A stretch of DNA of 61,720 bases, from the IMG/VR virus record IMGVR_UViG_3300035438_000178, positions 1 to 61,720 of that record. One strand, 5' to 3'. The translations under genes and the position numbers were made by a program. The DNA comes from a virus. Shown here one piece after another: positions 30,452 to 33,880 of the stretch; position 1 is the first letter of the stretch, and each line of letters begins with the position of its first letter. The notes beneath the pieces are model-generated. The model made no database searches. It was not told the DNA's origin and saw only the letters and a program-made list of their open reading frames with translations.

Positions 30452-30485
30452 TTGACAACGGCATTTCCACCGCCATATCTTTGCA
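30452..30485 (+). promoter_or_regulatory. Early promoter P1
   Basis: TTGACAA at 30,452 and TATCTTTGCA at 30,476, with 21 bases between TTG and the -7 box. This matches the Bacteroidota TTG/TAnnTTTG promoter closely. It drives the small early genes from 30,550. The base sequence after the -7 box (GCATCGTC) is shared with P3. Confidence 0.85.
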
Positions 30486-30549: not shown

Positions 30550-30774
30550 ATGAGTAAGATTAAAAACAAATCTACAAAGAGTAATTACTCACCTCGTAAA
30601 ACTCCAAGTTTTACTAGTATCTACCAAGAGAATATCTATGTCTCTTATGCCTTCAAGAAGATTAAGGCTAGGTTTAACTCTAAGTGTTATGCTACCGGTA
30701 CTTTGATTCCTGTTGGAGCAGAGATGTGGTATGATTATGCTAACAAAACTTGTTTTGCTATGGACTCTATTTGA
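30550..30774 (+). CDS. Small basic early protein, 74 aa
   Basis: First gene after P1. The N-terminal 25 residues are Lys/Ser-rich and probably disordered; the remainder (residues 25-74) is a compact beta-rich domain with C-Y-A-T-G-T-L-I-P-V-G-A-E-M-W-Y-D, reminiscent of small nucleic-acid-binding domains. A 7-bp hairpin (AATAACT/AGTTATT) in the leader ends just before the ATG and may influence translation. Family unknown; early host-takeover role is possible. Confidence 0.6.
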   Translation: MSKIKNKSTKSNYSPRKTPSFTSIYQENIYVSYAFKKIKARFNSKCYATGTLIPVGAEMWYDYANKTCFAMDSI

Positions 30775-30826
30775 GTTCATAGCACTGAGTAAGAAAAAAA
30801 AAAAAAAAAATTAAAAACTATTAGTT

Positions 30827-31027
30827 ATGAAAACTATTTCTCAAGCAACTTACAATTCAATCTACAATAAGTACCTAAAGTTAGTTAACTACTACGATGA
30901 GTTACTTTGGAATGATGGTTACGATGATGATGGTGAAACTACTGAGGATTGGAGTTATATCATTAGTATGACTAATGAGTTCAATGAGAGGTATCATCTG
31001 ATGATGAAAGGTGTAAAGGTTAACTGA
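30827..31027 (+). CDS. Small acidic early protein, 66 aa, ending inside the ribozyme
   Basis: A helical, Tyr- and Asp-rich protein (Y-Y-D-E-L-L-W-N-D-G-Y-D-D-D-G). It follows a run of 17 A residues at 30,794-30,810. Its final codons GTT AAC form the 5' arm of hammerhead stem I and its TGA stop (31,025-31,027) is part of the CUGAUGA catalytic core. Ribosomes ending this gene would therefore sit on the ribozyme. Function unknown. Confidence 0.6.
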   Translation: MKTISQATYNSIYNKYLKLVNYYDELLWNDGYDDDGETTEDWSYIISMTNEFNERYHLMMKGVKVN

Positions 31028-31073
31028 TGAGGCTTTAATAGCCGAAACATATCCTAAGGGATATGTCTTAACC
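31018..31073 (+). ncRNA. Type I hammerhead ribozyme
   Basis: Stem I GGTTAA (31,018-31,023) pairs with TTAACC (31,068-31,073). The core CTGATGA (31,024-31,030) is followed by stem II GGCT/AGCC with loop TTAAT, then GAAA (31,044-31,047), stem III CATATCC/GGATATG with loop TAAG, and T-C at 31,066-31,067. Every invariant hammerhead nucleotide is present, including the A-U pair after GAA and C at the cleavage site. Cleavage is predicted between 31,067 and 31,068, separating the 66-aa gene from the downstream 48-aa membrane protein gene. Stem I is short and has no internal loop for the usual tertiary contact. Confidence 0.92.
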
Positions 31074-31086
31074 AAAATGTTTAGTT

Positions 31087-31233
31087 ATGCATAAAGTAAT
31101 GTGTTTCATCCTGATGTTAGCAGGTACATTCCTGTTCGCTGAGTGTCTACGTCGTGGATTCGTAGGCTTTGGGCTGATAGGTGCTATGTCTGCTGTAGCC
31201 GGATTGTACTCCTACATTCAGGAGGGAAAATAA
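31087..31233 (+). CDS. Small membrane protein, 48 aa
   Basis: ATG at 31,087 lies 19 bases after the predicted ribozyme cleavage site. The protein has a hydrophobic segment at residues 4-19 and another at about 25-42, separated by C-L-R-R-G, so two short membrane helices are likely. Its gene is directly followed by an inverted repeat and promoter P2, the same order as for the 54-aa membrane protein before P3. Confidence 0.6.
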   Translation: MHKVMCFILMLAGTFLFAECLRRGFVGFGLIGAMSAVAGLYSYIQEGK

Positions 31234-31289: not shown

Positions 31290-31323
31290 TTGACAAAGGG
31301 GTTTCGATTGTTATACCTTTGCA
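31290..31323 (+). promoter_or_regulatory. Early promoter P2 (amidoligase 1)
   Basis: TTGACAA at 31,290 and TATACCTTTGCA at 31,312; 21 bases separate TTG and TACCTTTG. The flanks C-C-A-A-A-C-A-C before and T-G-T-T before the -7 box closely match P3, so the two promoters are likely duplicates. Confidence 0.85.
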
Positions 31324-32761: not shown

Positions 32762-32914
32762 GGTACACGTAGGCAAGGGGGTGTGTGTAGATATACACAC
32801 CCCTACACCTACACACGTAGACATACATATCTACACATATATGCACGTCTACATACGTAGACATACACACATACACACCTACACCTACACATAAACCCAC
32901 AAACACCTACACCT
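32762..32914 (+). repeat. CCTACAC/TACGTAG-rich intergenic tract
   Basis: This gene-free stretch is mostly overlapping copies of ACACCTAC, TACACA and TACGTAG. It opens with the hairpin at 32,778-32,803 and ends with A-C-A-C-C-T-A-C-A-C-C-T directly before the next ATG. The same words precede the starts at 33,638 and 36,628. Confidence 0.7.
32778..32803 (+). terminator. Hairpin after amidoligase 1
   Basis: GGGGTGTGTGT (32,778-32,788) pairs with ATACACACCCC (32,793-32,803) over a four-base loop, 11 pairs including one G-U. No U tract follows, so it may instead stabilise the mRNA 3' end. A similar GGGGTG/CACCCC hairpin follows amidoligase 2. Confidence 0.6.
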
Positions 32915-33511
32915 ATGGCTAACATTTGCAACAACTTCGTAACGATTTCCGGCAAGCCTGAGAATATCCGAGCTGCCTACAATTTTCTCCTCGACTACAC
33001 ACCCGACCACGGCGTGATGTACGACCGACTGCGCGACCTACACCTACGTAAGGGCTACACCCTGACCCCTGAGGACAACGGCGCCGCCTCACCTGTGTGG
33101 TGGGAGTACAACGTAGAGTACACAATCGTCGACCTTGACAACAAGGTAGATGTAATTTCTGTCGTCGGTGGTTCAAAGGGAATGCCGCCTGTGGATTTCC
33201 TACGCCTACTGAGCGAGCACTTTCACGTAGATGTGAGCGCTAAGTACGAGGACTACGCCGGATTCATCGGCGGATACTTCAAGGCTGTCAACGGTGACCC
33301 TATTGTCGACGATTTCCTGAGCCTACTTGAGTACCTGTGGCGCTACGATGACGAGCGCATTGCCTTCTACGATGAACTGCATTCGCTTTGTAAGTGGAAC
33401 GACCACGGCTTCGAGGATGTTAAACGACTGCATCTGAGTGAGTTTAAAACACCACTGACCGATGATGAATTGAGAATCATTGGAAAGTATTTCGAGGATG
33501 ATGCCTCGTAG
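32915..33511 (+). CDS. Api92-like/DUF1281-type protein, 198 aa
   Basis: The N terminus M-A-N-I-C-N-N-F-V-T-I-S-G is the hallmark of the phage and mobile-element Api92-like ferredoxin-fold family. The middle has P-V-W-W-E-Y-N-V-E-Y and the C-terminal half is acidic and helical. GC is high (around 55%), like the adjacent amidoligase 1, so they may have arrived together. The role is unknown; position between amidoligase 1 and the GATase makes it a candidate substrate or partner. Confidence 0.65.
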   Translation: MANICNNFVTISGKPENIRAAYNFLLDYTPDHGVMYDRLRDLHLRKGYTLTPEDNGAASPVWWEYNVEYTIVDLDNKVDVISVVGGSKGMPPVDFLRLLSEHFHVDVSAKYEDYAGFIGGYFKAVNGDPIVDDFLSLLEYLWRYDDERIAFYDELHSLCKWNDHGFEDVKRLHLSEFKTPLTDDELRIIGKYFEDDAS

Positions 33512-33637
33512 GTACACACCTACACCTACGTACATACACGTAGGCACGCACACCTACACCTACGTACACATACATACGTAGGTACACACACCTACCTACA
33601 CACACATATACCTACACCTACAAACACCTACACACCT
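33512..33637 (+). repeat. Second CCTACAC/TACGTA-rich intergenic tract
   Basis: Like 32,762-32,914, this stretch consists of tandem-like ACACCTACACCTACGTA words with TACGTA palindromes. It separates the Api92-like gene from a small membrane protein gene. At least seven copies of ACACCTAC can be counted by eye. Confidence 0.7.
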
Positions 33638-33846: not shown

Positions 33847-33880
33847 TTGACAAGGGCATACCGAATGTTATACCTTTGCA
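33847..33880 (+). promoter_or_regulatory. Early promoter P3 (GATase and amidoligase 2)
   Basis: TTGACAA at 33,847 and TATACCTTTGCA at 33,869, with the same 21-base TTG to -7 spacing as P1 and P2. It starts a transcript with a leader of about 100 bases before the GATase ATG. A short TCGT/ACGA hairpin begins the leader. Confidence 0.85.

Follow-up and report, generated by a model that had tools for sequence, protein, structure and literature searches.

What does a hammerhead ribozyme do between two small early genes of a phage, and does it matter that the stop codon of the upstream gene falls within its catalytic core? This question is raised by positions 31018-31073 of the IMG/VR record IMGVR_UViG_3300035438_000178, here called the window, i.e., the whole 61,720-nucleotide stretch that was analysed. 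A sequence-only reading of the window had proposed that termination of translation and folding of the ribozyme compete for the same bases, and that such a coupling had not been described. What hammerheads do in bacteria and phages was called an open question in a 2017 review (PMC6155905). The main text of Perreault et al. 2011 reports clustered hammerheads that flank prophage genes and proposes that they process transcripts into single-gene messages; three tandem bacterial arrangements were cleaved in vitro, one of them in E. coli, and HHphage of the haloviruses HF1/HF2 precedes the start codon of an early gene by 13 nt (PMC3088659).

The record falls within a group of ~60-kb tailed phages, with a portal related to those of Flavobacterium elemo, Cellulophaga and Tenacibaculum phages; among its genes are those for a terminase, a portal protein, a primase-helicase and an Erf-like protein. 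Its first plus-strand early unit contains the ribozyme, placed between promoter-like sites at 30452 and 31290; here a 74-aa ORF is followed by a 66-aa ORF, the ribozyme and a 48-aa ORF. The features of this unit are as follows:

30452..30483, plus strand: promoter-like site TTGAC...TATCTTTG ahead of the unit (sequence; putative function)
30550..30774, plus strand: 74-aa ORF that opens the unit and is conserved among the nearest relatives
30827..31027, plus strand: upstream 66-aa ORF, its last residues VN encoded by stem I (ORF reading)
31018..31073, plus strand: complete type I hammerhead ribozyme, stem I to stem I (core bases, fold, covariance model)
31018..31023, plus strand: 5' strand of stem I, GGUUAA, pairing with UUAACC at 31068-31073, 6 bp (fold, covariation)
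31024..31030, plus strand: core C3-A9, CUGAUGA, with two successive same-frame TGAs (sequence)
31025..31027, plus strand: TGA stop of the 66-aa ORF, within the CUGAUGA core (ORF reading)
31031..31043, plus strand: stem II, GGCU/AGCC, 4 bp, with pentaloop UUAAU (fold, covariation)
31044..31046, plus strand: core G12 A13 A14, GAA (sequence)
31047..31066, plus strand: stem III hairpin CAUAUCC/GGAUAUG, 7 bp, or 8 with A15.1-U16.1, loop UAAG (fold, covariation)
31067..31068, plus strand: predicted cleavage site, 3' of C17 at 31067 (position from the hammerhead fold)
31068..31086, plus strand: predicted 19-nt leader of the downstream message (distance from cleavage site to the ATG at 31087)
31087..31233, plus strand: downstream 48-aa ORF, a small hydrophobic protein (ORF reading)

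No known family was found for either the 66-aa or the 48-aa protein, homologue searches with both returned the identical contig alone, and BLAST of the 900-base region against phage genomes gave 0 matches. Three promoter-like sites of one kind (TTGAC...TANNTTTG) stand ahead of early units at 30452-30483, 31290-31321 and 33847-33878; we take them to be of the Bacteroidota type, which suggests that phylum for the host. Over 16 nt, the leader of the 66-aa gene (30814-30829) has 81% identity to that of the 48-aa gene (31074-31089), AAAACTATTAGTTATG / AAAATGTTTAGTTATG, and low-complexity imperfect tandem repeats of the ACACCTACAC type occupy early-gene gaps at 32797-32915 and 33513-33635.

Judged from its core and fold, the element at 31018-31073 is a genuine, complete type I hammerhead for which cleavage is predicted. 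It reads GGUUAA-CUGAUGA-GGCU-UUAAU-AGCC-GAA-A-CAUAUCC-UAAG-GGAUAUG-U-C-UUAACC, and the type I core (CUGANGA, GAA, A15.1-U16.1 and H17) is present in full, with three helices in type I order and stem I open, both in the fold and in relatives. Folding of 31010-31080 gives the hammerhead as the minimum-free-energy structure (-19.2 kcal/mol, z -3.3, with 0/200 shuffles equally stable), and it is kept in the minimum-free-energy structure of a 201-nt context that is as a whole modestly stable (z -1.8). Nearest-neighbour folding of many long contexts gave the inner pair of stem I a low probability (median 0.07), by a method that ignores tertiary stabilisation, and we regard this value as uninformative. 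In a comparison for exposure of the start codon by cleavage, the mean unpaired probability was 0.62 uncut vs 0.67 cut, a rise no greater than removal of sequence alone would give. A covariance model whose training set excluded the window scored 31018-31073 at 71.6 bits (E 1.5e-14). The complete core and the stems of 6, 4 and 7 bp described by the sequence-only reading are thus borne out, as are its placing of the 66-aa stop codon in the core and the predicted split at 31067/31068 with its 19-nt leader.

The same reading had named a covariance search with the Rfam hammerhead models as a check. Rfam 15 at gathering scores left 31018-31073 unmatched, the best sub-threshold matches being RAGATH-1-hammerhead (28.1 bits, threshold 56.3) and Hammerhead_3 (22.5, threshold 48.5). 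Among the 30 copies that the window-free model found in five test loci, none (0/30) reached an Rfam gathering score, one relative coming to 32.6 bits vs the Hammerhead_1 threshold of 34; standard Rfam annotation therefore overlooks the subfamily in the tested loci. Hammerhead_1 (RF00163) and Hammerhead_3 (RF00008) share the identical core and three-way junction with the element, whereas the window and all 30 relatives stay under their gathering scores. RAGATH-1 (RF03152), the best sub-threshold match, is presumably the pseudoknot hammerhead, reportedly from Weinberg 2015. The pseudoknot form has an extra stem-loop and a pseudoknot in place of helix II (PMC11300833), whereas stem II here is a covarying 4-bp hairpin. 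Membership of RAGATH-1 was rejected, given a score below threshold and a hairpin stem II with 4 covarying pairs. Theta (HDV-like) ribozymes of gut phages are likewise small phage ribozymes with an apparent role in RNA processing, but they are of another class and mostly lie beside tRNAs; those away from tRNAs are mostly >200 nt from the nearest ORF (PMC10879173). The widespread bacterial form in the main text of Perreault et al. is type II (PMC3088659), unlike the type I form with a fixed 6-bp stem I found here.

Relatives were collected with two patterns. The first, with 24 fixed bases and stem I as GGUUAA, matched 53 viral stretches, and the hammerheads in these loci have all three stems and are often arrayed. 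The second, whose fixed positions were the core, the two ends of the loop and, in stem II, the outermost and innermost pairs, matched at least 120 phage stretches; among the matches listed, 102 of 106 distinct full-context matches completed a type I hammerhead, stem I being exactly 6 bp in all 102, and shuffled flanks completed the fold in 0.5% of cases. In an alignment of 52 sequences, 99.5% of cells were paired, 14 of 15 pairs had changed on both sides, and 179 cells were altered on both sides; covariation was 0.67 vs 0.13 for shuffled and 0.04-0.09 for slid structures. The aligned sequences had been preselected by a pairing descriptor, and the flank test is an unselected control and therefore the stronger evidence. 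The compensatory stem changes that had been suggested as a check are accordingly found in related phages. The A flanking stem I is present on both sides in 66/74 copies and loop II is mostly UNNNU, which hints at a possible tertiary contact between loop II and stem I. By sequence comparison these elements form a compact phage subfamily, with a 6-bp stem I flanked by A, a stem II of 4 bp whose loop is usually UNNNU and a variable hairpin III. Structure and covariation, like the abundance, junction geometry and recurrence described below, are read directly from the sequences.

Whole records carry 1-10 copies each, grouped on one strand, and the window's record carries 1 in its 61,720 bases. Flavobacterium phage elemoB and Pelagibacter phages HTVC019P and HTVC131P have one copy each; loci L168 (2946-3012) and L169 (2656-2724) are the unannotated hammerheads of the two Pelagibacter phages, ahead of MarR and integrase genes. 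In five of 30 portal-related records, the corresponding divergent early region contains 1-4 copies. The two closest relatives of the window phage have neither the element nor either flanking small gene, so the element is dispensable for this group, and the module of 66-aa gene, hammerhead and 48-aa gene has been gained and lost. A pattern search of genome contigs gave one match, a subfamily hammerhead with a long stem III insert on a Bdellovibrionales MAG contig (L056, 2712-2782), which may be a phage contig.

Junction geometry was counted over 211 loosely non-redundant copies, 15 of which have no upstream ORF of at least 40 aa ending nearby. In 181/196 the upstream ORF terminates between -16 and +15 relative to the core, and in 161/202 the following ATG comes 18-29 nt after the cleavage site (median 24); the sampled loci were all chosen for having the core, and these statistics describe those loci rather than phage hammerheads generally. 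Upstream ORFs end just before stem I (51/196), in stem I (46/196), at the core TGA (39/196) or near loop II (17/196). There are two TGAs in CUGAUGA, one TAA in GGUUAA and, often, a stop in loop II in the third frame, and because these stops are in different frames a gene that enters the element usually ends there. Homologous upstream proteins end differently: in L111 and L036 the C-terminus is ...VN, at the core (the L036 protein being a shorter version), in L048 the stem I TAA is the stop, and the L041 homologue reads through LTDEA to loop II. The position of the core stop is therefore not conserved. What recurs is a gene ending at the element, not in its core. Specific selection for a stop in the core was rejected on the 39/196 core endings and the varying positions among homologues. 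Another set of homologous upstream genes ends at hammerheads in L067 (1658), L074 (1252), L075 (253) and L108 (4330), on the reverse strand except in L074. Some loci have a Shine-Dalgarno-like motif within the leader, 3' of the predicted cut, so cleavage would keep the translation signal with its own gene.

We consider that these elements probably serve intercistronic mRNA processing, an active type I hammerhead cutting at the stop-ribozyme-start joints of small early genes. The hammerhead would fold as RNA polymerase passes and would cut after C17. The upstream message would then end in hairpins II and III with a 2',3'-cyclic phosphate and the downstream message would start at a 5'-OH, with a short leader (~20 nt), these being the ends that hammerheads generally leave. 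A polycistronic early RNA would be divided into separate messages with independent translation and decay, and the position of the stop inside the ribozyme would follow from a joint that abuts the upstream gene tightly and offers usable stops in all three frames. Cleavage in the cell, the chemistry of the ends and an effect on expression are what we infer. A single copy in the window would give one cut alone, which counts against this reading. The prophage and HF1/HF2 hammerheads in the main text of Perreault et al. similarly flank individual phage genes, and processing of long transcripts was proposed there (PMC3088659). The proposal that polycistronic RNA is processed by phage hammerheads dates from 2011; that main text does not mention stop codons, and we found no uniform leader length given there (PMC3088659). 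The junction geometry is sharper than we found described, although the processing idea itself is prior. A link of hammerheads to anti-restriction is also common to both, with ardA in the 2011 main text (PMC3088659) and an ArdC-like anti-restriction gene (phrog_7245) upstream in L067.

It is also possible, if somewhat doubtful, that the hammerhead and its adjacent small gene move as a cassette, the ribozyme securing the inserted gene's own message, with the conserved core perhaps providing homology for recombination. Among the hammerhead junctions compared, 35 pairs share the downstream gene alone, 53 the upstream gene alone and 10 both, and in the closest relatives of the window phage the module is missing from between conserved neighbours. 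By such comparisons the element looks like a joint that links exchangeable genes. However, small early phage genes shuffle regardless, and the pair counts cover hammerhead junctions alone. Moreover, exchange at the joint is compatible with message processing and does not compete with it.

A translation-coupled switch, closest to what the sequence-only reading had in mind, appears unlikely to us. Here, a ribosome terminating at the core TGA would keep the ribozyme unfolded, and cleavage and expression of the 48-aa protein would report translation of the 66-aa gene. The core stop of the window, shared with the 39 relatives counted above, would fit such a device, and nearly all upstream stops are within a ribosome's reach of stem I. 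We infer that termination at any of these stops would place a ribosome over stem I, and competition between ribosome and ribozyme is plausible at every such junction. A special coupling to the stop codon is not sustained, however, since core endings are about as frequent as expected for a motif with stops in all frames, homologues in L111, L036, L048 and L041 stop at three different places, and 15 copies have no upstream ORF ending nearby.

Two further readings are very improbable. Circular or spliced RNA made by hammerhead pairs, as in retrozymes and viroid-like RNAs, would draw on the tandem copies in several records, but the window holds one copy, the copies are found beside protein-coding genes and not beside noncoding repeats, and spliced or circular products were sought by Perreault et al. 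and, according to the main text, not found (PMC3088659); it was rejected on the single copy and the lack of circular products in that text. A chance occurrence or inactive relic would suit a sole copy in the record, and has against it 0 strict hammerheads in 200 Markov-simulated windows, an intact core, the E of 1.5e-14 from an independent model and family-wide covariation.

More speculatively, and rather unlikely as a whole, the element could be a phage-wide gene-joint module, an RNA of ~56 nt giving an any-frame stop, an mRNA cut and a leader of standard length, with cleavage set by upstream translation; early genes would be exchanged together with the joint, each keeping its own message. 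As for the stop codon in the catalytic core, its reading as a special regulatory device is corrected to a common geometric overlap of a tight fit. With a large uniform set lying under Rfam thresholds and with tight stop-ribozyme and cleavage-start distances, the hypothesis that these hammerheads process phage messages becomes directly testable, and carriers are in culture among Flavobacterium and Pelagibacter phages.
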